Assembly: GCA_030949325.1 (NCBI GenBank)
Contig: JAUZSQ010000110.1
Coordinates: 1 to 64,000, forward strand
Length of the DNA stretch: 64,000 nt
Reading direction: 5' to 3'
Origin: Sulfurovum sp.
GTDB lineage: Bacteria; Campylobacterota; Campylobacteria; Campylobacterales; Sulfurovaceae
Of this stretch, positions 1 to 14,135 are shown one piece after another. The position numbers and the translations under genes are program-made. The first letter of the stretch is position 1, and each line of letters starts with the position of its first letter. The notes below the pieces were generated by a model that ran no database searches, was not told the DNA's origin, and worked only from the letters and a program-made list of their open reading frames with translations.

Positions 1-23
1 CCCCTAAATAACCCCACCAACCC
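1..23 (+). repeat. Left terminal inverted repeat of the IS66 copy
   Basis: Begins CCCCTAAATAACCCCACCAA. It is the inverted partner of 1799-1821, with two adjacent mismatches at positions 5-6. Confidence 0.75.
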
Positions 24-124
24 AATATTAAGCAAACTACTACATAGTTAAAAGCAGTAAAAACATCACATAAAAAAGTGATTTACTAACCAAGTATAGT
101 AGTAGTTTTAGCTATCATACCACT

Positions 125-1798
125 ATGAAAATAGAACTTATTAATATAGAAAAACTACAAGAAACCATTATAAATCAAGCCCAAGAGAATAGTACTCAAG
201 AAAAAAGAATACAAATCCAACAAATTGAAATAAATTACCTAAAAGAAAAGATAGATTACCTCATACGCCAACAATTTACCTCCAAAAGTGAAAAACTAAA
301 CTCTACTCAGCCAAGTCTATTTGAAGACAATGCAGAGAGTATCGAAGTAGTAGAAGATGAAGAGATTGAAATAACATTTAAACGCAAGAAAGGTGGAAGA
401 ACTTCACCACCTAAGGAGTTACCAAGAGTGCGAGTAGAACACGATATAGGTGATGAAGAGAAAGTGTGTAGTTGTGGTGACACAATGCATAGAGTAAAAG
501 AGATAATATCAGAACAATACGATATCGTACCTGCAAAGTTCCAAGTCATAGAAAATGTTCGGTTCGTATATGGCTGTAGATGTGGAGAAAAACCAGTGAC
601 CACAGCATTAGCCCCATTCATACTCCCAAAGACACAAGTAACTGCTTCATTCTTAGCAACTATTGCCGTACAAAAATTTGAAGATGCATTGCCACTGTAT
701 AGACAAGCCAAAATATTTAAAAAATAGATTTGGGGTTCCATTTAGTGATACTACACTCTCCAATTGGATGATAAAAGCTTCTGAGAAACTCAAACCTTTT
801 AAGCAGAGACTTAAAGAGAGACTCTTAGAGAATGAATATATACAAGCAGATGAGACTACACTACAAGTGGTGAATGCACACAAAAGCAAAGCAACGAAGA
901 AATCCTATATATGGCTAGGTGTAGGACAATACCTTCGCCAAAATGAAAATGAGCATATTTTGCAAAGTTCAAACCCCGTAAATAGGAGGGCTAGAGAAGA
1001 AGAAAATAGCTATTTTTAGTAAAAATACAAATTGGCTAAGGTATTGGTAGGAATGGATAAATATAAAGTAGTCTATATGCACTATGCCAACAATAGAAGT
1101 AGCCGTAGTAGCCTCTGAACTCTTTAAAGGTTTTAATGGGTATCTCCAAACAGATGGATATGCTGGATATAATGCTACAGTCCAAACAAATGATATGACA
1201 CATTTAGCGTGTTGAGCCACGCGAGGAGAAAGTTTGCAGATATAGTCAAATCAGGAGTCAGTGACCTAGAAAGTAAGCGTTATGCACAAGAAGCCATAAT
1301 ACTTATACAAAAACTCTATAAAATAGAAAAGAGAAATCAAAGATGACCCCTGATAAAAAACTACTCATCAGAAAAGAGAAATCTCAAGCTATCATCAACA
1401 CCATAAGAGAATGGATTAACACAAAGTTCTATAAAGCACAAGAACTTGCTGGGGCTATTGCTAAAGCATTTGTGTATCTTAATAATCAATTTGCTAAGTT
1501 AGAAGTCTATCTCACCGATGGCAGACTCAATATAGATAACAATGAGAGCAGAGAACCATATAAGACCTATGGTACTTGGTAGGAAGAATTGGTTATTTGC
1601 TACATCTGTTAAAGGTGCTGAGGCTATTGCTACTTGGTATACTATTATTGAAACTGCAAAAAGGCGAATGGATTGGAACCATATCACTATTTGAAGTATC
1701 TTATGACTGAGTTTCCTTATTACCAAAGGGATGGTAGAGATATTGAAGCGTTGTTACCTTGGAATGTAAGTGATGATGGGGTAGTTAGGATTTCTTAG
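125..1798 (+). pseudogene. IS66-family transposase (TnpC type), broken
   Basis: The first part (125-727) has the N-terminal coiled coil and the zinc-binding CSCGDTM...GCRCG segment of IS66 transposases. The frame then shifts at the A-run near 720. The DDE core follows (FGVPFSDTTLSNW, then YIQADETTLQV) up to a MITE insertion at 927. After the MITE the core resumes (DKYKVVYMHYANNRSS, GYLQTDGYAGYN). It is hit by another shift near 1100 and by a substitution plus a one-base loss near 1213 that destroys the expected CWAHARRKF motif. The C terminus ends LPWN...RIS at 1798, typical of the family. Several independent lesions, not one, make this real decay rather than base-calling error. Confidence 0.85.
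927..1046 (+). mobile_element. 120-bp MITE, copy A (inside the IS66 transposase)
   Basis: Starts CAATACCTTCGCCAAAATG and ends TTGGCTAAGGTATTG, a 15-bp terminal inverted repeat with one mismatch. It is flanked by a perfect 6-bp duplication GTAGGA (921-926 and 1047-1052). It matches copies at 26713-26833 and 39435-39554 along its whole length. It has no coding capacity, so it must be moved in trans. Confidence 0.85.
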
Positions 1799-1821
1799 GG
1801 GTTGGTGGGGTTATTATGGGG
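1799..1821 (-). repeat. Right terminal inverted repeat of the IS66 copy
   Basis: Core GGGTTGGTGGGGTTATT at 1799-1815 is the perfect inverse of 7-23. The next small gene's ATG (1816) lies inside this repeat. Confidence 0.75.
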
Positions 1822-2091
1822 GTTACAATAAAAGTACTTGGATTGCCTATTATCTTTTCTCCTGTATCTGATAAAATAACAGAACTATGTGTTTTTGATA
1901 AAAATACAAAACTTGATGATTTAAAGCAAGTTGCAATTTGTATTTTAAATGAACACTATGCTGAGATTGATTTTTTAGAAAAAGAGTCAGAAAAGAACAA
2001 TACTAAAGCCCCAACACAAGAGAAAAATATACAATTTATTTATGATAATTATCATGATGTAGCTGAGTTTAAACGATTGATAAATGAATAA
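1816..2091 (+). CDS. Small hypothetical protein, possibly an N-terminally truncated remnant
   Basis: 91 residues, acidic, no membrane segment and no family I recognise. The first ATG falls within the terminal repeat of the IS66 element and has no ribosome binding site of its own. The IS may therefore have replaced the original 5' end, with the residues near 'MGVTIK' being chance coding by the repeat. It ends 25 bases before the MoxR ATPase start at 2117, so it may once have been the first gene of that operon. An intact gene with a start elsewhere cannot be excluded. Confidence 0.4.
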   Translation: MGVTIKVLGLPIIFSPVSDKITELCVFDKNTKLDDLKQVAICILNEHYAEIDFLEKESEKNNTKAPTQEKNIQFIYDNYHDVAEFKRLINE

Positions 2092-2116
2092 TATAAAGCA
2101 AAATAAAGGAAAAATG

Positions 2117-3089
2117 ATGTCAGAAAATGAAGAAATAGTAAAAGAAGATTGGTGGATTTATGAGGGAAAAGATGAATTAGCAAAGAGAAAAAAAAAGTTA
2201 GAGGACTTAGCGAAACCTAATTGGAGAGATAAAAAACAGCCTAACTATACTGCTCAAACTTTTATAGTCAATAAAGAGATAATAGAAGCTGTGAATGCAT
2301 CTATATATTTACGCCGTCCTCTTTTGGTAACAGGAAAGCCTGGTACAGGCAAATCTACATTGGCAAAGGCTATTGCTCAAAATCTTGACTTAGGGGAAGT
2401 ATTACCTTGGCATATTAGCTCTAAGAGTGTTTTATCAGATGGACTCTATTCTTATGATGCATTGGCAAGGCTTCAAAATATTCAGATAAAAAAAAGACGG
2501 AGAGAATAAAGAGCTAGATACAAGCATCAAAAACTATCTCAAAATCAATGCTCTAGGTACAGCTTTTTTATCAGAAGAGAGACGGGTTGTACTCATAGAT
2601 GAATTAGACAAAAGTGATAGAGATTTACCGAATGATTTACTACATATCTTTGAAGACCAAGAGTTTGATATAGAGGAACTAAAGCGTCTACAGTCAAAAT
2701 CAGTTGAAGGTATTAAAGATATGGAGAATAAATCACATACTATCACCGCTGGAAAAGTTGCTGTAAATAAGGATTTTCCTATTATTATCATGACGAGCAA
2801 TGATGAGCAAGAATTTTCATCAGCCTTTTTACGAAGATGCATTTGTATTGAGCTTAAAATGCCAGATAGTGACCAAGAAAAAATAGATATATTGACCAAG
2901 ATGGTAGAGTCTCATTTTCCAACAGAAAAAGGAAATAGCCAAATAAAAATGACAATAGAAAAATTTGTAGCACTCAACAAAGCATCTCTACGCTCTAATG
3001 ATCAGTTGCTTAATGCTATATATATGGTATTAAAATCAACAGCCAAATATGATGACTTTTCTACTTCTGTATTGTCAGCGATAGAGTAG
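2117..3089 (+). CDS. MoxR-like AAA+ ATPase (one-base frameshift)
   Basis: ATP-driven remodelling ATPase of the MoxR group. Walker A GKPGTGKST is near residue 71, Walker B VVLIDELDKSD near residue 157, sensor 1 IIMTSNDEQEFSSAFLRR after it, and a C-terminal helical lid ends the protein. The frame breaks in a run of eight A (2488-2495); with seven A the two halves join into a 323-residue protein, normal for the family. The start is ATG 2117, six bases after AAAGGA. The next gene begins ten bases after the stop and carries a vWA domain, the usual MoxR partner. MoxR proteins typically act as chaperones or activators for a co-encoded vWA protein; that role here is inferred. Whether the extra A is an error or a phase-variable tract cannot be settled from one sequence. 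Confidence 0.85.
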
Positions 3090-3098
3090 GACAAAAGG

Positions 3099-5303
3099 AT
3101 GAAAGAGCTTGTAGCATTTATATCTACACATCAAAAAGAGAGTGATGCAACACAAATAGCAGAAGTGCTATGGCTTTCTCAATTTTTGAATGCTTCAAAA
3201 GATGTAAAGGTAGAAGATCCTAAGCCGTCTAAACAAGCAGTACCTCAAAATAAAACGAGTAATCTAGCAAGAGATGTAAGTCACAAGGTGAGTATTTCTT
3301 CTGCTCAATATGAGGTAGAAGAGACGCATAATCATAGTTTGGAACAGCAAGAAAATAGTAACTCTTTTTATGCTTCAAATATAGAGAGGAAAGCGAACTT
3401 TCCAAATATAAACGAGCAGTTCTCTTTGCTTAAATTAAAACAAAAAAGAGTATCCACAAAAGAAATAGATGAAAATAAATCGGCAGATTACATAGCTTCT
3501 ACAGGTATATTTAATCCTATATTTAGAGAAGAGAAGTTTTATGATGCATACTTTGATTTAAATATCATTATAGATACCCATGAGTCTATGTTTTTATGGA
3601 CAGAAGCCATAACACATTTTAAAAAAAGTTTGCAGTTTTCAAAGTACCTCAATAAAATTCATATTTTTGAATGTGACAGTAGTCAAAATGAAATAGTATT
3701 TAAAAATCAAAAAACAGGCACTAAGTTCACAACTGAAACGGCTATATTTAAACAAAAAGAGTGTTTTACTCTATTTTTTACAGATGTCACAGGAAGCGTA
3801 TGGCAAAACAATAAGATGTTTATGTTGTTAAATGGGTGGTCAAAAGCATCATTTACAGCTATTGTCTCTATGTTGCCTAAACATATGTGGCAAAGAACGG
3901 CACTAAGAGATGGAGAGAGTAGATTTCTGAAAATGGGACGTTTCCCACCTACAAACAAAAACCTACATTCAGAATATGCTTTTATAGAAAATTCATTTGC
4001 TAAAGACAATCTAAAAATACCTATTATCCCTTATGATAATCATGCTTTTTCTTATCTGTGTAAAGTCCTTACCACAAGTAAAGGCTCTCTTATTGAGACA
4101 AAAATATTTGAAGATTTAGAGCTTATCCCTATTGAAAAAGATAAAGATAAATTAGATGCCAAAAGTAGAGTCAAACGATTCTTTAATTCTGCTTCATCAA
4201 AGAGCCGTGAACTTGCTATTTATGCATCTATACTACCACTCAATAAAGAGATTATAAATGAAGTAATAAAAGTTAAATCACTAGGTCAAGATATGGATGC
4301 CTTTGCAGAGTTTTACTTTGGTTCTTTGCTTGATAGAGAGAGAAAAGTAACGCTAGGAGAGTATGACTTTTATGCAGGGTTAAGGAAAGCACTTTGGCAA
4401 TATATCTCAATAGATGTAGCAAAAGAGCTTTATTTGGCTATAGCCAATATCTTGACAAACAGTCTAGGTATTAGAGCCAATATTGTAGCTTTTCTTTTTG
4501 GAAAAGAGTCAAATACAAGAGCTAACTTTGATGAAAAAGAAAAAGCCCTTATAGATTTGGTATTAGAAGTTTTAGGCGATAAAGGTAAATTTTATAGAGA
4601 TGAAATACAACGCATAAAAGATAAATCTAACACTATTTACTTAAAAACCAACACCTACAAAATGGGTTCAAACGATGGTGATGGTGATGAAAAACCAGTG
4701 CATAAAATCACCTTTGATTATGACTTTGAAATAGCCAAAACCCCAGTGACTTTTGAAGAGTATGATTTATATTGTGAAAAAGAAACTATAAAAAAACCAA
4801 GTGATAGAGGTTGGGGTAGGGCTAAACGACCTGTTATCAATATTTCATGGCATGATGCTGTGGCTTATTGTGCATGGTTAAGTCACAAAACCAATGAAAC
4901 TTATAGGCTACCCACAGAAGCAGAGTGGGAGTACGCTTGTAGGGCAGGAACAACTACTACATGGAGTTTTGGCGATGATGAGACTCTTTTGGGTGATTAT
5001 GCATGGTATAGTAAAAATTCAGATAATAAAACCCATGAAGTAGGAACAAAAAAGTTAAACCCTTGGGGGCTACATGATATGCACGGAAATGTATGGGAGT
5101 GGTGTCAAGATGATTGGATAAATAGTTATGAGAAGACCCCTAAAGATGGAACTGCTTATGAAGATAAAAGCTCAGGTAGTAAAGTCCTTCGTGGCGGTTC
5201 GTGGTACCCTAGTTCCATTAGGACTCGCTCGGCTGATCGTATCAATAGGAATCCTTCTAATAGTAATTTTGTGGGGTTTCGTCTCCTCAGAACTTTACCT
5301 TAG
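3099..5303 (+). CDS. vWA-like + FGE/sulfatase-modifying-factor domain protein with DGR-type variable C terminus
   Basis: 734 residues. Residues 1-120 are a low-complexity, helix-rich segment. A vWA-like region starts near 150 (LNIIIDTHESM resembles a degenerate MIDAS strand) and runs to about 330. A helical middle follows. From about 515 to the end is an FGE-sulfatase (C-type-lectin-like) fold: TYKMGS, AKTPVTFEEYDLYC, RPVINISWHDAVAYCAWLS, RLPTEAEWEYACRAG, GLHDMHGNVWEW, VLRGGSW, VGFRLLR. ATG 3099 has AAAGGA just upstream. It is coupled to the MoxR ATPase (gap of nine bases). Proteins of this architecture are known in MoxR/vWA conflict systems whose FGE tips are diversified by retroelements. 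The last 40 codons match that pattern when compared with the gene at 6134. The enzymatic FGE role is unlikely; ligand display is the better guess. Confidence 0.85.
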   Translation: MKELVAFISTHQKESDATQIAEVLWLSQFLNASKDVKVEDPKPSKQAVPQNKTSNLARDVSHKVSISSAQYEVEETHNHSLEQQENSNSFYASNIERKANFPNINEQFSLLKLKQKRVSTKEIDENKSADYIASTGIFNPIFREEKFYDAYFDLNIIIDTHESMFLWTEAITHFKKSLQFSKYLNKIHIFECDSSQNEIVFKNQKTGTKFTTETAIFKQKECFTLFFTDVTGSVWQNNKMFMLLNGWSKASFTAIVSMLPKHMWQRTALRDGESRFLKMGRFPPTNKNLHSEYAFIENSFAKDNLKIPIIPYDNHAFSYLCKVLTTSKGSLIETKIFEDLELIPIEKDKDKLDAKSRVKRFFNSASSKSRELAIYASILPLNKEIINEVIKVKSLGQDMDAFAEFYFGSLLDRERKVTLGEYDFYAGLRKALWQYISIDVAKELYLAIANILTNSLGIRANIVAFLFGKESNTRANFDEKEKALIDLVLEVLGDKGKFYRDEIQRIKDKSNTIYLKTNTYKMGSNDGDGDEKPVHKITFDYDFEIAKTPVTFEEYDLYCEKETIKKPSDRGWGRAKRPVINISWHDAVAYCAWLSHKTNETYRLPTEAEWEYACRAGTTTTWSFGDDETLLGDYAWYSKNSDNKTHEVGTKKLNPWGLHDMHGNVWEWCQDDWINSYEKTPKDGTAYEDKSSGSKVLRGGSWYPSSIRTRSADRINRNPSNSNFVGFRLLRTLP

Positions 5304-5345
5304 TTTTTGGGCGTTTTTTACCTTTGGATTTTTTGCTCTTGAAAT
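5178..5345 (+). repeat. Variable-region-like repeat 1 (3' end of vWA-FGE gene plus flank)
   Basis: Shares near-identical sequence with 6713-6885, from AGTAAAGTCCTTCGTGGCGG through the stop codon and about 45 bases beyond. The differences are concentrated in the codons between GGSW and VGFRLL, and they fall on first and second codon positions. The conserved 3' part (GTGGGGTTTCGTCTCCTCAG onward) would correspond to the homing-initiation segment of a DGR. Confidence 0.7.
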
Positions 5346-5347
5346 TT

Positions 5348-5375
5348 GCGTAGGTCGGGGTGTCCTCTCCCCGAC
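5348..5375 (+). repeat. REP hairpin 1
   Basis: GTAG at 5350-5353, then stem GTCGGGG 5354-5360 and CCCCGAC 5369-5375 with loop TGTCCTCT. Confidence 0.8.
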
Positions 5376-5470
5376 AATGGTTTGCACAAAATAAAAATCT
5401 AACATAACAAAACCACATTTTCATGAAAATATTGATTGGATGTAAAATATTTATTGCATATTGGATATGT

Positions 5471-5497
5471 GTCGGGGAGAGGACACCCCGACCTACG
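5471..5497 (-). repeat. REP hairpin 2 (inverted)
   Basis: Reverse complement of REP 1, ending CCGACCTACG, so the GTAG foot is on the minus strand. It lies just before the RAYT start. Confidence 0.8.
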
Positions 5498-5518
5498 GAT
5501 TTTATGATACAATATCTG

Positions 5519-5983
5519 ATGAAATATAGACGGATATTTGCCGATGGCTATAGTTATTATTTGACCCTTGTGACACAAGGACGTAAACCCATATTGATTG
5601 ATAATATTGATTTGCTTCGTTATGCTTTTAGATTGAGTAAAGATAAGTATGACTATAGCATAGATGCCATCGTCATCTTACCTGAGCATATACACATGAT
5701 AATCACACCTAAGAGAGCAGAAGAGTATCCTAAAATCATTTCTGCGGTGAAAAGAAGTTTTGTTTATGGTTTGGACAAAGCATTAAAAGATGAAGCCAAA
5801 ATAGAAATATCTGCTTCCAAATACAAAAGAAGCCACGCAGGTATATGGCAAGAACGCTTTTATGAACACACGATAAGAGATGAAAAAGATTGGTTAGAAA
5901 AGATGGAGTACATCAAAAATAACCCAGTAAAACATGGCTATGTAGAAGAGGTAAAAGAGTGGAAATATTCATCATTTGCGTAG
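5519..5983 (+). CDS. REP-associated tyrosine transposase (RAYT, IS200/IS605-like Y1 family)
   Basis: About 154 residues from ATG 5519 (MKYRRIFADGYSYYLTL). An in-frame ATG also exists at 5504, and the open frame extends upstream through REP 2, which is unlikely to be coding. The HUH metal motif is seen as LPEHIHMIITP, and the C-terminal catalytic-tyrosine helix as MEYIKNNPVKHGY followed by WKYSS. These are the standard RAYT landmarks. The stop codon TAG is formed by the GTAG foot of REP 3, so gene and hairpin are physically fused. RAYTs cut and join single-stranded REP DNA. The gene appears intact and could act on the other GTAG-footed hairpins in this window. Confidence 0.9.
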   Translation: MKYRRIFADGYSYYLTLVTQGRKPILIDNIDLLRYAFRLSKDKYDYSIDAIVILPEHIHMIITPKRAEEYPKIISAVKRSFVYGLDKALKDEAKIEISASKYKRSHAGIWQERFYEHTIRDEKDWLEKMEYIKNNPVKHGYVEEVKEWKYSSFA

Positions 5984-6005
5984 GTCGGGGTGTCCTCTCC
6001 CCGAC
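5978..6005 (+). repeat. REP hairpin 3 (overlaps the RAYT stop codon)
   Basis: Identical to REP 1 across GTAG, stem and loop. The RAYT stop TAG is 5981-5983. Confidence 0.8.
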
Positions 6006-6095
6006 ACATATCCAATATGCAATAAATATTTTTTATTTTATGGGTATTTTTTGTACAACTATGATTATATCAAATATGTATGTAATCAAATCATT

Positions 6096-6122
6096 GTCGG
6101 GGAGAGGACACCCCGACCTACA
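6096..6122 (-). repeat. REP hairpin 4 (inverted)
   Basis: Inverted copy matching REP 2. It closes the unit just upstream of the ribosome binding site of the second FGE gene. Confidence 0.8.
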
Positions 6123-6133
6123 TAAGGAAACAA

Positions 6134-6840
6134 ATGACCAAATTTATAGAACCTAAAATGGTACGCATCATCCACCAAAAACCTGAAAAATCGATGACTA
6201 TAGAGATGGTGCATCTGCCTAAAGGTTCATTTACGATGGGTGAGGGTAGTAATAGAAAAGAAGTTTATCTTAACTATGAATTTGAAATAGGTAAATATCC
6301 AGTGACTTTTGATGAATATGATATATATTGTGAAGATGAGAAGATAGATAAACCAAGTGATGAAGGTTGGGGAAGAGGAAAACGACCTGTTATTAATGTA
6401 AGTTGGCATGATGCTGTAGCTTTTTGTAAGTGGTTGAGTAAAAAAACAAACGATACCTATAAACTACCCACAGAAAAAGAGTGGGAATACGCTTGTAGAG
6501 CAGGAACAGATACAAAGTGGAGTTTTGGAGATGATGAAAAAGCGTTAGGTAAATATGCTTGGTACAGTAAAAATTCTTATGACTTAGGAAAAAAGGATAA
6601 AGACTATGGCACACATAGAGTAAGCGAAAAATTACCTAACGATTGGGGTCTTTTTGATATGCATGGAAATGTATGGGAGTGGTATGAAGATTGCTATAAT
6701 AAAGATGAAAAGAGTAAAGTCCTTCGTGGCGGTTCGTGGGTCGATTTACCGATAGGACTCGCTCGGCTGATCGTCTCAGTTGGAGTCCTTCTAATAGTAG
6801 TAATAATGTGGGGTTTCGTCTCCTCAGAACTTTACCTTAG
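6134..6840 (+). CDS. FGE/sulfatase-modifying-factor domain protein, second DGR-type target (frameshift in the variable tip)
   Basis: A stand-alone FGE fold of about 235 residues once one missing base near 6746-6760 is restored. It has GSFTMGEGSN, GKYPVTFDEYDIYC, RPVINVSWHDAVAFCKWLS, KLPTEKEWEYACRAG, GLFDMHGNVWEW, VLRGGSW and then the shift. After restoration the tail reads RTRSADR...NNVGFRLLRTLP, as in the vWA-FGE gene. Unrepaired, the frame runs on to 6949 through a hydrophobic nonsense tail. The start is ATG 6134, preceded by AAGGA. The body is clearly diverged from the first FGE domain, but the DNA of the last 125 bases plus 3' flank is almost identical. The shift may be an error or a retrohoming product. 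Confidence 0.8.
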
Positions 6841-6885
6841 TTTTTGGGCGTTTTTTACCTTTGGGATTTTTGCTCTTGAGATTTT
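6713..6885 (+). repeat. Variable-region-like repeat 2 (3' end of second FGE gene plus flank)
   Basis: Partner of 5178-5345. Aligned with one gap, codons differ as TAC/GTC, CCT/GAT, TCC/ACC, ATT/GAT, ATC/CTC, AAT/AGT, AGG/TGG, AAT/AGT. All fit changes from an adenine-rich template. The block RTRSADR is unchanged. Confidence 0.7.
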
Positions 6886-6943
6886 GAGAAGCCTCGCAGA
6901 GACGCGACATTTTTTAAAATACCTCAAATTTAAACCTATTTCG

Positions 6944-6949
6944 CTATAA
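6944..6949 (+). promoter_or_regulatory. Probable -10 box (TATAAT) of rpsB-tsf
   Basis: TATAAT in CGCTATAATCACGTTCC. No clear -35, as usual in Campylobacterota. It predicts a leader of roughly 195 bases before rpsB. The same TAwAATC-n-CGTTCC pattern occurs before rpsP (55424). Confidence 0.55.
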
Positions 6950-6955
6950 TCACGT

Positions 6956-7152
6956 TCCTTATTCTAGCGATAGAATTTGGAAATACTCATGTAGTTATTC
7001 CTTGAACGGTTGCACAGTTGTGTTGATGGCTACAGTGGACCAAACCTAATGATGGGCTTTATGCCTTTAACCTAGCTTAAGTTATGTTGTGTGGATTGAT
7101 GATAAATCTATACAAGATGGCTTAGGCTATATTTACCCTAAGGAGATTTACT
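6956..7152 (+). promoter_or_regulatory. Long 5' leader of rpsB
   Basis: About 195 bases without a reading frame of note, ending in the strong ribosome binding site AAGGAG (7140-7145). Several short complementary segments exist (for example TTGCACAGTTGTGTTG). S2 autoregulates rpsB-tsf through its leader in other bacteria; the same role here is only inferred from length and position. Confidence 0.4.
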
Positions 7153-8021
7153 ATGGTAGCAATGAAAGACTTACTCGAATGTGGTGTACACTTCGGACAC
7201 CAAACAAGAAGATGGAATCCAAAAATGAAGAAATTTATTTTCGGTTCTAGAAAAAATATTTATATTATTGACCTTCAAAAAACACTTAGATACTTCAAAT
7301 ATACTTACAATGTAGTAAGAGATGCAGCAGCTGAAGGACAAACAGTTCTTTTTGTTGGTACTAAAAAACAAGCCCGTTCAGCAGTGAAAGAACATGCTCA
7401 GAGATGTGGTATGCCTTATGTAGCTACAAGATGGTTAGGTGGAATGCTTACGAACTATCCAACAATGAAAAAATCTATCAGAAAACTCGAAATCATCGAG
7501 CAAATGGAAGAAAACGGTCAACTTGAAATGCTTACGAAAAAGAAGCACTCATGCTTCTAAGAAAAAAAGCAAAACTTTCTTCGTATTTAGAAGGTTTTAG
7601 ACACATGAAAAAATTGCCTGATATGGTCTTTGTAATTGATGCAGTGAAAGAGCATATTGCAGTCAAAGAAGCCAGAAGAATGGGTATGAAAGTGATTGCT
7701 CCACTTGACACGAACTGTGACCCAGATGTGATTGATTACCCAATCCCTGGAAATGATGATGCGATTCGTTCTATCAATCTTTTCTGTAGAGAAATGGCTG
7801 AAGCTATTATCGAAGGTAAAGCACTGTATGCTGAAGCCAATGGCGAGAATGTAGAAGAAGTATCCGCAGGTGAGATAGAAGCAGTGATGGCAGAAGCTGT
7901 AGCTGAAGAAGTAGCTGTACCAGCGACTCCAGCGACTGAAGCTGAAGTAGAAAAGCTTGTAGAAGAAAAAGTAACTCCAGCACTTGAAGCAGAAACGGTT
8001 ACAGAAGCAAAAGGAGAATAA
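7153..8021 (+). CDS. rpsB: 30S ribosomal protein S2 (one-base frameshift)
   Basis: The N-terminal half has [30 protein letters not shown] and [10 protein letters not shown]. The second half, in another frame, continues [29 protein letters not shown] and [10 protein letters not shown]. The halves join if the A-run at 7537-7541 has six bases instead of five, restoring LTKKEALM and a 289-residue protein. S2 is essential, so the gap is almost certainly a sequence error. The C terminus carries an extra 60-residue Glu/Val/Ala-rich tail. Followed by tsf after two bases. Confidence 0.95.
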
Positions 8022-8023
8022 GC

Positions 8024-9085
8024 ATGGCAAACTTTGGACCTAAAGACATCAAAAAACTCAGAGAGATGACTGAAGCAGGAATGATGGATTGTAAAAATGC
8101 CCTCAAATCCTCTGATGGAGATATGGACAAAGCCGTAGCATGGCTCCGAGACCAAGGTATGGGTGCTGCTGCGAAAAAAGCTGGTAAAACAGCTGCTGAG
8201 GGAGCGATTACTATCAAGGTTGAGGGAAACAAAGCAGTGATTGTTGAGATTAATTCTCAAACGGACTTTGTGGCACAAAATGATAAGTTTCAAGCCTTGC
8301 TTTCTACTGTAGTCAAGCATACTTTTGACAATGCTTTAGCTGATGCTGAGAGTATCAACAGTTCAGAGATGAAAGAGGAGTCATTTGCTCAGTACCTTTC
8401 TTTGCAAGTCGCTACTATTGGTGAAAAGCTTGTGGTAAGACGTTCTGCATTGATTGATGCTGATGAGAATACTGCTGTCAATGGATATGTACATTCAAAC
8501 TTGCAAAATGGCGTGATTATCGAAGCCAAATGTGATTCTGCCAAGACAGCCGAAGCGATGACTTCTACTCTCAAAGACGTAGCAATGCATGCTGCTGCTA
8601 TGAGTCCTTCGACACTTTCTTACCAAGACTTTGATGCTACTTTTGTGGCAGACGAGACCAAAGGTAGAATCGTAGCGATTGAAAAAGAGAATGAAGAGCT
8701 TGTACGTTTGGGTAAAACACCTAAAAATATTCCTGCGTATATCTCTATGAGTCAACTGACAGAAGAGGTTTTGGCTGAAGCTAAAGCGTCACTAGAAGCT
8801 CAACTCAAAGCTGAGAACAAACCAGAAAAAATTTGGGATAAAATTATCCCAGGTAAAATGGCAAGATTTATCTCTGACAATACAACACTTGACCAAGAAC
8901 AATGTCTTCTTGACCAAAACTTTGTCATGGATGATACCAAGACCGTTGCTGAGTATATTGCTGATAAAGCAAAACAAGCAGGTGGTACAGCTCAAATCAC
9001 TTCATTTACGCGTTTAGAAGTAGGTGAAGGTATCGAAGTAGCAGAAGAAGATTTTGCTGCTGAGGTTGCTGCACAAATGGGCTAA
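8024..9085 (+). CDS. tsf: Elongation factor Ts
   Basis: Guanine-nucleotide exchange factor for EF-Tu. The N-terminal UBA-like helix bundle is LREMTEAGMMDCKNAL...AVAWLRDQGM, and the core motif SQTDFVAQNDKF lies near residue 85. At 353 residues it is the longer Campylobacterota-type form. AAAGGAG sits at the end of rpsB, so the two genes are co-translated. The hairpin at 9100-9115 closes the operon. Confidence 0.97.
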   Translation: MANFGPKDIKKLREMTEAGMMDCKNALKSSDGDMDKAVAWLRDQGMGAAAKKAGKTAAEGAITIKVEGNKAVIVEINSQTDFVAQNDKFQALLSTVVKHTFDNALADAESINSSEMKEESFAQYLSLQVATIGEKLVVRRSALIDADENTAVNGYVHSNLQNGVIIEAKCDSAKTAEAMTSTLKDVAMHAAAMSPSTLSYQDFDATFVADETKGRIVAIEKENEELVRLGKTPKNIPAYISMSQLTEEVLAEAKASLEAQLKAENKPEKIWDKIIPGKMARFISDNTTLDQEQCLLDQNFVMDDTKTVAEYIADKAKQAGGTAQITSFTRLEVGEGIEVAEEDFAAEVAAQMG

Positions 9086-9099
9086 CCCCCTCTTAATCT

Positions 9100-9125
9100 A
9101 CTGCCTCTTGGCAGTGGTATTTTTG
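9100..9125 (+). terminator. Rho-independent terminator after tsf
   Basis: Perfect 6-bp stem ACTGCC (9100-9105) / GGCAGT (9110-9115), loop TCTT, followed by GGTATTTTTG. Confidence 0.7.
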
Positions 9126-9167
9126 CTTCTTTCTGTTCTTCTTTCTGTTTATCTATATTTTTTGTGC

Positions 9168-9173
9168 TAAAAT
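9168..9173 (+). promoter_or_regulatory. Probable -10 box (TAAAAT) of the LolD-like gene
   Basis: GTGCTAAAATACC, 26 bases before ATG 9199, after the tsf terminator. Confidence 0.45.
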
Positions 9174-9198
9174 ACCTTACTTTATTTAAAGGCACTTT

Positions 9199-9855
9199 AT
9201 GTCACAAGCACTTCTAGAAGCTCAGTCTATTGCTCATCGTTTTGATTATACACTCTTTAGCGATATAGATTTTACCCTAGCACCCTATGAGTCCAAGGCT
9301 ATTGTAGGACGCAGTGGTTCAGGTAAATCTACCCTTTTACATATATTTTCTACTTTTATGTCACCCAATGAAGGCAGTGTACACTTATTAGGGCAAGATA
9401 TTTATCACTTAACAGATGATAAAATAGAAGCTTTGAGACGCTATGATATAGGGATTATCTTTCAGTTTCATTATCTTTTCAAGGGGATGTCTGCTATGGA
9501 CAATATCGACGTGGCAAGTATGCTTAGTGGTCAAGAGTTGGACAAGGGAATATTGGAGAAACTACAGATACAAGAGCTGATGAAACAGCGTATCGGAGAC
9601 CTCTCTGGTGGACAGCAACAGCGTGTCTCTATCGCTAGGGTATTGAGTAAAAAGCCCCGTATCATCTTTGCTGATGAGCCTACGGGAAACCTAGACAAAG
9701 AAACAGCTACCTTGGTGATGGATGTACTCCTAGACTACTGTAAAACCACAGGAGCAGGGCTAGTACTTGTCACGCATGATATAGATATGGCAAAGCGTTG
9801 TGATGGGGTATATACTTTAGAAGATAAGGTTTTGACCCCTACCTTTACAGGATAA
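9199..9855 (+). CDS. ABC transporter ATPase, LolD/MacB type
   Basis: 218-residue nucleotide-binding subunit. Walker A GRSGSGKST is near residue 37, the Q-loop is IIFQFHYLF, the signature LSGGQQQRVSIARVL, Walker B IIFADEPTGNLD, and the H-loop LVTHD. The EPTGNLD motif and FQ-F-LF Q-loop are those of LolD/MacB/FtsE-type ATPases that power lipoprotein release or envelope transport. No membrane partner (LolC/E-like) is adjacent, so the substrate cannot be named from context. It is the first gene after the tsf terminator and is probably co-transcribed with the cytochrome gene behind it. Confidence 0.85.
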   Translation: MSQALLEAQSIAHRFDYTLFSDIDFTLAPYESKAIVGRSGSGKSTLLHIFSTFMSPNEGSVHLLGQDIYHLTDDKIEALRRYDIGIIFQFHYLFKGMSAMDNIDVASMLSGQELDKGILEKLQIQELMKQRIGDLSGGQQQRVSIARVLSKKPRIIFADEPTGNLDKETATLVMDVLLDYCKTTGAGLVLVTHDIDMAKRCDGVYTLEDKVLTPTFTG

Positions 9856-9871
9856 ATTAAAAAGGACAAAT

Positions 9872-10849
9872 ATGAAGTATATACTAGGAGCATGGATATA
9901 TTTTATCTCTACACTCTATGCTAGTGAAATGATATGTACCTATTGTCATCAAAATCAAATGCATATCTCTGGATTGAAGACCAAAGAGCAATGGAAAAGC
10001 CTTAGCTCTGATGGAGGATTAGGCTTACAAGAGATACACCAATACAATGTAGCTGTCTTAGCCTACTTTCAAAGTCCTGAATATAATGCCACAGAGCTTT
10101 ATGATTATGTAGAATTTCATGCGTCTAACCAAGAGGCTTTAGCGTTAGAAAGTATCATCGAATCTTGTACCTATTGTCATGATAGCAAGATGACACTCTC
10201 TCGTTTGTGGAGTAAAAATCAATGGCAAAACCTAGCTCACTCCGTAGAAAACCTCAAAGTATTACACCAAAATGAGCTACAAGTTCTAAGCTTCATAGAC
10301 TCCAAACCCTTTGAAAAATCTTTAGCAAATTTTATCCATAGTATGCAATTTTTTGCAGCTGAAAAAGAGCATCCACCGACTAAGTTAGGACTCTATACAG
10401 GTAAACAATATCCTGATTTTATATGGAGAAAATTTGCATTTAAAAATAAAAGTTTTGGTTTTGTCTATGAAAAAATGCAAGGACAAGAAGCCGAAGCACA
10501 GAAAATCTATAAAGCTATGCAAACAATATTACAAAGATGTAATATGACAGCACCTATAGACTTTAGGCTCAAACATGGTGGCTGGAGTCTGAGAAAAAGT
10601 GATGTTTTTTTGTGGGTCTTGACCTTTGCATCTTTAGAGGTAAGAAGTACCCTAAGCTTCACATTAGAAGCCACCCAAGAGGGGAAAACTTATACAAGTA
10701 AAAAGTTTATCACAGAGAAAAATAGATGGTTTAAAATGCATACATCAAGTGAAATTATAGGTAATATTTTGGATACGGTTATGGATGATATGACGGCTCA
10801 GTTGGGTTTGGAGTGCGAGAGGGGATTTGATAGACGATTATATTTTTAA
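9872..10849 (+). CDS. Exported diheme cytochrome c-like protein
   Basis: 325 residues with an N-terminal signal peptide (YILGAWIYFISTLYAS). There are two CxxCH haem c sites, CTYCH at residues 22-26 and CTYCH at 99-103, each heading a similar ~75-residue repeat (CTYCHQNQM...W / CTYCHDSKM...W). The C-terminal ~160 residues are a basic, non-haem domain that I do not recognise. The first haem site begins only a few residues after the predicted cleavage site. Periplasmic electron transfer is likely, with partner unknown. The 3' end overlaps by 12 bases the convergent HNH remnant. Confidence 0.8.
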   Translation: MKYILGAWIYFISTLYASEMICTYCHQNQMHISGLKTKEQWKSLSSDGGLGLQEIHQYNVAVLAYFQSPEYNATELYDYVEFHASNQEALALESIIESCTYCHDSKMTLSRLWSKNQWQNLAHSVENLKVLHQNELQVLSFIDSKPFEKSLANFIHSMQFFAAEKEHPPTKLGLYTGKQYPDFIWRKFAFKNKSFGFVYEKMQGQEAEAQKIYKAMQTILQRCNMTAPIDFRLKHGGWSLRKSDVFLWVLTFASLEVRSTLSFTLEATQEGKTYTSKKFITEKNRWFKMHTSSEIIGNILDTVMDDMTAQLGLECERGFDRRLYF

Positions 10850-11156
10850 ATAGACAGCTTTAATAAAACTCTGAAACTCATAATCAAAAATTTCACAAAC
10901 TTCTTCGCTATTTTTTTTCTCTCTTGTGTCAAAAAATCGCTTGATGTTTCTCCTAATCTAAAAAGTTCAATGGTAAATTTAGATTTAATACAATTTGTGT
11001 TAGAAACAATCTCACCAGTAGGTAAATAGTCAAAGTAATCCTCAGGGTCATCAACACAAGGATTGACGATATTGTCATACTCTTCTCTTGTTTTTAGAAA
11101 ACTTTATTTTTGGCTTTTATAAAAAATGAGGGTTCTTTTTTAGTGATTTTAAACAT
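10838..11156 (-). pseudogene. Remnant of a Septu/retron-type HNH nuclease (PtuB-like), core deleted
   Basis: Not a single open frame. Read on the minus strand with two one-base corrections (near 11098 and at the A-run near 10911) it gives an N terminus MFKITKKEPSFFIKAKNKV, as in PtuB/TIGR02646 proteins. It then passes directly to the C-terminal pattern IVNPCVDDPEDYFDY...GEI...TIELFRLGETSSDFLTQERKK. The roughly 100 residues that would hold the Cys pairs and HNH centre are missing. Its ATG overlaps the end of the ATPase gene, the PtuA-PtuB gene order. Family assignment is from remembered motifs and moderate. Confidence 0.5.
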
Positions 11157-12096
11157 TTTTTCTTCGTGAAGTAATTTCAAGTTTCAAAAGTTTTAAATCT
11201 AAATATTTTTTACCCAATATCTCTTCAAGTTGACTCCACTCTTTTTTAAATTCATCTGAGTCATATTCATTTTGAACTATCATAGATTTCACGTTAGCCA
11301 TTTTTTGGGCTACAATAGGCGTACGCAAATATTTAACACCCATGATACTAGTCAAAATTTCATTAAATTCTAAGCCATAACTTTGTGAATATTCAAGCAC
11401 TTCAATTTTATCCTCTATTTTGTTTAAAACACGAAGATATTCAGGGTTAGCCGCACCAATAATATGAGGAGAATGCGTAGCGATAATAATTTGACAATTA
11501 TTTTTGAGTGCAAAGTTTTCGTAAATTTTTAAAATGCTATTTTGCCAACTAGGATGTAATGAAAGTTCAGGTTCATCTATGAGGATGACTTTGTCTTTAT
11601 AATCTTGAAAGAATAGATAGAGGATTTTTGCAAATAATGTTTGTTCCCCTGTTGATAGTTCACTAATCTTAAATTTTTCATCTTTATCATTCTTAAAAAA
11701 TATATTATCATCTTCGTCTATATGGCTGTAGGTAACACTTATTGTTAATTTACCAAATATTTCTTTAATAAATTTTTGTAGTTCTTCGGTAATTTCATCA
11801 TTTCTCTTATTATGAAACTTCACTAAATTATACCAATATTTAACAAATTCTTTTTTGACTTTAGCTATTTCATTTATCCCTGCATTAAAATATTTTATAC
11901 CATCTTTTTTAAATACTTCTACAATATCAGATTTTGTTGTTTGATGAACTTCAACATAGCTATTTTTAAGTAAATCTAAATTATATAAACTCTCCAAAAG
12001 ACTAGTCTTCCCACTCCCATTCACTCCAGCCAAAATAATAATAGGCAAAGGCTCATCATTTTTATCTACAAAGCTAATATCAAAATCTTTGAACAT
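11149..12096 (-). CDS. AAA ATPase of the OLD/PtuA (Septu-like) group
   Basis: 315 residues from the first ATG. Walker A is AGVNGSGKT, a coiled region follows, the signature-like ELSTGEQTLFAK comes next, then Walker B KVILIDEPELSLHPSWQ and H-motif IIATHSPHII. These are the ATP-binding landmarks of OLD/Septu ATPases. The family N terminus is normally about 12 residues longer; in frame upstream the DNA reads LKLRSLHIDKYK, preceded by AAGGAAAG, and the natural start would fall on CTG at 12132-12130. So either a CTG start is used or ATG has mutated or been miscalled. The gene begins just after prfB on the same strand. Its nuclease partner is deleted, so the system is probably inactive. Confidence 0.75.
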   Translation of the reverse strand: MFKDFDISFVDKNDEPLPIIILAGVNGSGKTSLLESLYNLDLLKNSYVEVHQTTKSDIVEVFKKDGIKYFNAGINEIAKVKKEFVKYWYNLVKFHNKRNDEITEELQKFIKEIFGKLTISVTYSHIDEDDNIFFKNDKDEKFKISELSTGEQTLFAKILYLFFQDYKDKVILIDEPELSLHPSWQNSILKIYENFALKNNCQIIIATHSPHIIGAANPEYLRVLNKIEDKIEVLEYSQSYGLEFNEILTSIMGVKYLRTPIVAQKMANVKSMIVQNEYDSDEFKKEWSQLEEILGKKYLDLKLLKLEITSRRKNV

Positions 12097-13309: not shown

Positions 13310-14135
13310 ATGATCATTGCATACACAATAGAGGCATTATATGAAGCCAAGAGGCATTTGTCAGGCACGATAGGGTTTGTGCCTACGATGGGAGCGTTAC
13401 ATCAGGGGCATCTTTCTTTGATTCAACAAGCAAGAGCAGAGAATGAAAGTCTCATTGTTTCTATCTTTGTCAATCCGACACAGTTTTTGGAGGGTGAAGA
13501 TTTGGATGCGTATCCACGCAAGGACAAAGCCGATATTAAGATTTGTGAATTGGCAAAGGTAGATATCTTGTTTATGCCAAGTATTGATACGATGTATGAA
13601 GAAGATGAACTCTGTATTGCTGCTCCTGCGATAGGGGGATATGTACTCGAAGGCTCCAAACGTGCTGGGCATTTTGATGGGATGCTTCAAGTGGTGATGA
13701 AACTACTCAATCTCTCTTCTGCGACCCGTGCGTATTTTGGTAAAAAAAGATGCCCAACAGTTGGCACTGATTACCCAAATGAGCAAGAATTATTTTATGG
13801 ATGTAAGGATAGTCCCTTGTGAGATAGTCCGTGATACAGAAGGCTTGGCATTAAGCTCACGCAATATCTATCTCGACGCATCTCAAAAGAAACGTGCATT
13901 GTGTCTTTCTTCTGCTTTGAAGTCTGCTGTAAAGATGGTGATGGCAGGAGAGTTAGAGAGTCAGAATATTAAGCAGAAGATGCGTGAAGTAATGGGTGAA
14001 GCAGACAAGATAGAGTATGTAGCCATTGTCAATCGTCAATTTGTCTCTATACCCAGTGTAGAGATAGGCAATACTATTATTTTGGTCGCAGGGTGGGTGG
14101 GTAAGCCACGCTTGATTGATAATCTTTGGATATAA
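13310..14135 (+). CDS. panC: Pantothenate synthetase (one-base frameshift)
   Basis: Joins pantoate and beta-alanine using ATP. The N-terminal half has [16 protein letters not shown] (nucleotide-binding HxGH) and SIFVNPTQF. After the shift come [23 protein letters not shown] (KMSKS-like region) and the C terminus. The A-run 13742-13748 has seven bases; six restores YFGKKDAQQ and a 274-residue protein. Probably a sequence error. The start is ATG 13310 behind GAGGA. Confidence 0.92.

Follow-up and report, generated by a model that had tools for sequence, protein, structure and literature searches.

Two probable orphaned targets of a diversity-generating retroelement flank a REP-associated transposase in Sulfurovum sp.

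Why should two neighbouring genes end in almost the same letters when the domains that precede those ends have clearly diverged? The question is posed by a 64,000-nucleotide stretch of a Sulfurovum sp. genome (assembly GCA_030949325.1, contig JAUZSQ010000110.1, positions 1 to 64,000; hereafter the window), in which two genes for proteins of the FGE-sulfatase/C-type-lectin fold stand close together. An original prediction, made from the letters of the window, had read the shared 3' ends as variable regions (VRs) of a diversity-generating retroelement (DGR) whose machinery would act in trans. In a live DGR, the RNA of a template repeat (TR) is copied by a reverse transcriptase (RT) together with Avd, adenines are misread, and the resulting cDNA replaces the VR. 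Comparison of sequences with those of relatives makes the identity of both patches as DGR variable regions as good as shown. The two genes themselves are best explained as DGR targets, now orphaned, within a conflict system of the MoxR-vWA type, which has probably lost its avd-RT-TR core and in which a transposase gene now sits in the core's slot.

Two target genes and their near-identical ends

The two genes, their VRs and the flanks of these are as follows.

3099..5303, forward strand: target gene 1, in which an N-terminal region resembling SAV_2336 (and read as vWA-type) is joined to an FGE-sulfatase/C-type-lectin-fold domain (PF03781)
5193..5291, forward strand: VR1, spanning GGSW to VGFRLL and lacking one codon relative to the family norm
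5292..5346, forward strand: the last codons of target gene 1 (RTLP, stop), followed by the VR-specific conserved 3' flank, from comparison of VR and template flanks
6134..6841, forward strand: target gene 2, a stand-alone FGE-sulfatase/C-type-lectin-fold protein (PF03781, E 1.5e-37), its frame lost in the VR as assembled
6728..6828, forward strand: VR2, with a 1-nt gap near 6746 that is probably an assembly error
6829..6908, forward strand: end of target gene 2 and the conserved VR 3' flank, with GAGAAGCCTCGCAGAGACGCGAC, an element common to the VR flanks of relatives

The near-identity of the two 3' ends was borne out by a search of the genome: the copies at 5178-5345 and 6713-6882, each made up of some 120 terminal coding bases of its FGE-fold gene and ~45 bases of the adjoining 3' flank, are 88% identical, whereas the FGE domains upstream of the repeat share 64% protein identity, with 42% of third codon positions differing. 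Within the block from GGSW to GFRLL, VR1 and VR2 differ by 15 substitutions, distributed 8/7/0 over first, second and third codon positions (hypergeometric P 0.0011 for the lack of third-position changes), and in 13 of the 15 an adenine stands on one side. The original prediction had counted about a dozen substitutions, all on first or second positions, and a single gap; the confinement to the first two positions holds, and the gap count does not. Because the distance from GGSW to GFR is 84 nt in all other VRs and TRs measured (87 in one pair), as against 83 and 81 in the window's copies, two gaps are needed, one of 1 nt in copy 2 (about 6746) and one of 3 nt in copy 1.

As assembled, copy 2 runs out of frame past GGSW, and the open reading frame at 6134-6949 terminates in an unrelated reading frame. 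This could be taken for a sign of decay, a reading that we set aside since rpsB (7153-8021) and panC (13310-14135) are likewise frameshifted. These two genes and the MoxR gene (2084-3092) carry one frameshift each, at or near A-runs (at an A5 run in rpsB, in stretches with A8/A7 runs in MoxR and panC), which points to indel errors in the assembly (2.53 Mb in 115 contigs, 93.4% complete). The frameshift in VR2 is therefore likely to be an assembly error as well, at TTT(T).

Homologous retroelements in the Sulfurovaceae

The relatives of this locus are what identify its variable ends. When 175 genomes of the same family were searched with the 168-bp block, VR-like blocks were found in 18, the window's own genome included. 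A close DGR-type RT is present in 6 of these 18, many of which are incomplete assemblies, and in each of those six the contig that carries it also carries VR or TR copies. Wherever the contig extends far enough, the order is target 1 with its VR, avd, RT, TR, and target 2 with its VR, as in the metagenome-assembled genome BB14 (genome G057, contig C77; JADGDQ010000013.1), and the slot between the two targets is filled by avd-RT-TR in G057, G168 and G165 (contig C106). The relatives' Avd proteins match NF033474 (DivGenRetAVD) above its cut-off, as well as phrog_3206 ('Avd protein of DGR') and PF22296 (bAvd), and their RTs carry GxxxSQ at motif 4 (GIPLGNLTSQ).

In ten TR/VR pairs from six genomes, all mismatches (147/147) fall on a template adenine (p about 1e-75 for an adenine share of 0.31). 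Most of the window's 15 variable bases lie on those same adenines: set against the TRs of seven relatives, 12 to 14 of them coincide with a template adenine, with p ranging from 8e-6 to 1.3e-8, or from 1e-3 to 3e-6 when first and second positions only are considered. It is on these two results, the confinement of mismatches to template adenines in the relatives' TR/VR pairs and the position of most of the window's sites on the same adenines, that we regard the DGR origin of both patches as good as shown. The original reading of both C-termini as DGR variable regions is thereby upheld, the same regions in relatives standing beside Avd, a DGR-type RT and an A-rich template. As for the accompanying claim that all changes derive from adenines of the template, the relatives' TRs bear it out for 12-14 of the 15 sites, the genome's own TR not having been found.

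After the TRs (loci L061, L063, L064, L065, L066 and L072) there is a conserved structured RNA with compensatory changes, clearest in a hairpin at columns 37-58. A covariance model of this RNA (R1), for which six TR-bearing relatives served as training set, finds the TRs of 7/7 TR-bearing relatives, G168 being the only independent recovery. In G168, a stem-loop resembling a repetitive extragenic palindrome (REP) is inserted within the RNA.

Could the pattern have arisen with no retroelement at all, through recent gene conversion of the C-terminus followed by positive selection on ligand-binding residues? Such conversion would account for the identity of some 45 nt of 3' flank beyond the stop codon, a stretch outside the template that TR writing alone does not explain. 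However, the changed positions coincide with the relatives' template adenines (p down to 1e-8), no third position changes, and in six relatives this region forms a clear TR/VR pair. Moreover, the flank occurs after VRs of the family and after no TR, and it is conserved after VRs in several genera and is therefore an old element. We consider this explanation, already disfavoured, to be highly improbable; the shared 3' flank beyond the VRs still needs either gene conversion or an old constraint.

A phage and a plasmid origin were also tried and rejected: the exact VR 3' end is absent from viral contigs, viral relatives of the RT are 29-30% or about 33% identical, and the VR block is absent from plasmids.

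The slot between the targets and the fate of the core

If the two ends are VRs, where is the machine that wrote them? In the 93.4%-complete assembly, we found no DGR RT (with PF00078 or a relative's RT as query), no TR (the block search and a relative's TR DNA returned only the two VRs) and no TR-associated RNA by R1, while the same RT, TR and RNA searches find their objects in relatives; for Avd there are weak four-helix-bundle matches only (24-36% identity, best E 8e-4). The original prediction had proposed looking in this genome for an RT beside an A-rich copy of the block, and had named the lack of both as half of what would refute it; the assembly yields neither. Its suggestion of machinery acting in trans within the genome is thus not supported, although the DGR origin of the targets stands because of the evidence from relatives. 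The position at which relatives keep the core is occupied as follows.

5350..5496: REPIN 1, with REP palindromes at 5350-5375 (forward strand) and 5471-5496 (reverse strand)
5423..5983, forward strand: RAYT, a REP-associated tyrosine transposase, true start probably ~5506, in the relatives' avd-RT-TR slot
5980..6121: REPIN 2, with REP palindromes at 5980-6005 (forward strand) and 6096-6121 (reverse strand)

The assignment of the transposase to the RAYT class is borne out by an equivalog hidden Markov model, NF047646 (REP_Tyr_transpos), matched above its cut-off with E 2.5e-43 (PF01797 matches too), and by the palindromes around it, four GTAGGTCGGGG REP copies with a GTAG 5' tetranucleotide, one further copy of which is found in the genome. 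The genome also has 31 Y1_Tnp matches on many contigs, several of them near-identical IS200-type copies, and ten relatives have 0-8 each.

That the similarity was made, or the core removed, by strain mixing or a collapsed repeat during assembly is an idea to which the indel errors in rpsB, panC and MoxR, and the ending of some contigs of relatives at or near VRs, lend some colour. Yet unique sequence (the RAYT, the REPINs and the distinct body of the second FGE gene) links both VRs on one 145-kb contig, and we find an artefact of this kind scarcely credible.

The reading that we favour, and think probable, is the loss of the core at this locus. Both VRs would have been written from one shared TR, which may have read approximately GGSW AAC AAT AAT ACC AAT AGG ACT CGC TCG GCT RAT CGT AAC AAT AGG AAT CCT TCT AAT AGT AAT AAT AAT GTG GGG TTT CGT. 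The avd-RT-TR core between the targets would later have been lost, and a RAYT transposase flanked by REPINs now fills the slot. What remains would be sensor domains frozen in one state, serving as the C-type-lectin/FGE ligand face of a conflict system of the MoxR-vWA type. Their diversification would have ended unless an unassembled DGR serves them in trans, and the last variants written are probably those at which this genome's sensors now stand.

Four sibling loci in the family keep partial remains of a core. On contig C107 of G135, the slot contains a TR that is still intact, together with a short stretch left from the 3' end of the RT and a gene for a ParE-type toxin plus the gene next to it; contig C105 of the same genome retains a decayed remnant of the TR-associated RNA (E 1e-6). 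In G056 what is left is a single REP palindrome and about 45 bp of RT, and in G060 (contig C98) an avd fragment lies beside rpsB. The slot of G165 on contig C137 contains a PIN-domain toxin gene and a small neighbour. In the window, too, rpsB is a neighbour of target 2, on its 3' side, and it occurs near the G135 locus as well. Core loss with surviving targets is, by these comparisons, recurrent in the family, and the window fits the series. The resident TRs of G165 and G060 do not account for the orphan VRs of these genomes (on C137 and C98, respectively), which differ from them by 11-21 non-A mismatches. At the G135 locus on C107 (L072), the same 4 non-A differences separate both VRs (4893-5032 and 6547-6686) from the resident TR (5204-5370), and therefore the present TR was not their last template.

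Alternatively, the targets might still be diversified in trans, either by a complete DGR elsewhere that was not assembled or by a core retained at this locus in sibling strains of the population. The family offers an example, since a remote VR of G057 on contig C36 fits the TR on C77 with 16/16 mismatches at A. Another comes from Thiohalocapsa PB-PSB1, whose population contains both intact and transposon-degraded versions of a single DGR locus and some of whose targets are served in trans (PMC10907252). Furthermore, the lack of third-position differences between VR1 and VR2 implies that the last writing was recent. However, neither RT, TR nor TR-associated RNA is found in 93.4% of the genome, and the place where the core usually stands is assembled without a break and contains the RAYT. 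We therefore judge diversification in trans to be unlikely, and core loss the likelier history than trans machinery in this genome. It should be noted that several points weigh against core loss all the same: the DNA between 5345 and 6134 holds no remnant of a core, so that we infer its loss here from the relatives; a DGR elsewhere could be missing from an assembly of this completeness in 115 contigs; recent writing leaves little time for the core to disappear; and the remote VR of G057 attests trans-diversification in the family itself.

A more tentative idea, possible but doubtful in our view, is that REP/RAYT elements preferentially invade VR 3' flanks and drive deletion of the avd-RT core, such that the family's targets would cycle between live and frozen states. 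In three genomes the REP palindrome CGTAGGTCGGGGTGTCCTCTCCCCGAC is found immediately 3' of VR flanks (window 5350-6121; G056, contig C34, 865-891; G054, contig C211, 1888-2064), the copies so placed make up 4/5, 1/1 and 2/4 of all copies in the window's genome, G056 and G054, respectively, a second REP type stands at the corresponding place in G165 and G171, and partial cores are found adjacent to REPs.

One further observation concerns such flanks. On contig C211 of G054 (L090, 1831-2064) a relic VR 3' end and flank with a REPIN follows a pyrE-like gene, with no FGE gene left.

Conflict-system context and comparison with known systems

One more gene would belong to the proposed system.

2084..3092, forward strand: MoxR-like AAA+ ATPase gene, in two frames that join, with an apparent frameshift between them in A-rich sequence (A8 run)

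The first half of this gene has Pfam matches to AAA and bpMoxR, the latter under its cut-off. In target gene 1, a profile search places PF03781 at residues 512-731 (E 5e-51), and the N-terminal region matches NF041121 (SAV_2336_NTERM) with E 1e-52, under its curated cut-off. The VR belongs to a C-type-lectin/FGE fold, as indicated by PF03781 and by a match in both sequence and fold to TvpA of Treponema denticola (PDB 2y3c), which is among the top matches (sequence E 3e-30, fold E 2e-11). The fold of target 1 matches FGE/PvdO as well as TvpA, and the C-terminal tip of TvpA aligns to the window's VR; from the AlphaFold model (mean predicted local distance difference test score 68, lowest in the VR) the overall fold alone was used, the tip being not resolved.

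MoxR-vWA ternary conflict systems have been described by Kaur et al. (PMC7159879). Of their components, the MoxR half is represented here by a weak bpMoxR match and the SAV_2336 N-terminal region falls below its cut-off; in the relative G135, a caspase-EACC1 protein is encoded upstream, its match also below cut-off. By analogy, the placing of MoxR beside a vWA-C-type-lectin (CLec) target would match both these ternary systems and the sensor proposal of PMC10907252. The target genes had no match in PADLOC, nor did window positions 1-12000 in Rfam.

These results indicate that DGR targets can be recognised, and a lost template partly inferred, after the machine itself has gone. The finding of a close DGR RT in only 6 of 18 genomes with VR-like blocks, many of them incomplete, suggests that core loss is common in the Sulfurovaceae, and the locus adds a Sulfurovaceae branch to the hypermutated putative immune sensors. 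With orphan targets it could, moreover, be tested whether hypermutation is favoured for the continual change it brings or is turned off as soon as a useful variant has arisen. A full-text search of a partial library returned no literature linking DGRs with Sulfurovum; for Campylobacterota or Epsilonproteobacteria with DGRs there were few matches, and the one examined covers DGRs of Gammaproteobacteria only.

Among known systems, the complete DGRs of the Sulfurovaceae, such as that of BB14, resemble the window in their two kinds of target gene, the VR block, the VR 3' flank and the kind of template, but keep avd, RT and TR between the targets where the window has a RAYT with REPINs. TvpA, known as a DGR target and served by an intact DGR, shares the FGE-type C-type-lectin fold, and the window's VR aligns with its C-terminal tip; target 1, in contrast, carries a vWA-type region in addition and lacks a DGR core. 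In cyanobacteria, remote variable proteins are known, including all3226, which has remnant TR-VR homology and no nearby RT (PMC7517822). These are like the window in having a VR-bearing CLec gene without an adjacent RT, although there TR-VR homology is still detectable within the genome, whereas the searches of the window's genome brought up no TR whatever.

The nearest precedent is Thiohalocapsa PB-PSB1, with MoxR-linked DGR loci at some of which arrays resembling miniature inverted-repeat transposable elements have replaced the RT or TR; intact DGR forms coexist in its population, and some targets are incomplete, remote or served in trans (PMC10907252). There, as is probable here, a MoxR ATPase adjoins a vWA-type protein with a variable FGE/CLec C-terminus. 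Thiohalocapsa belongs to another bacterial group, the replacing element in the window is a RAYT with REP palindromes, and the evidence here comes from assembled sequence. The window's locus is a further case of the kind, in the Sulfurovaceae.

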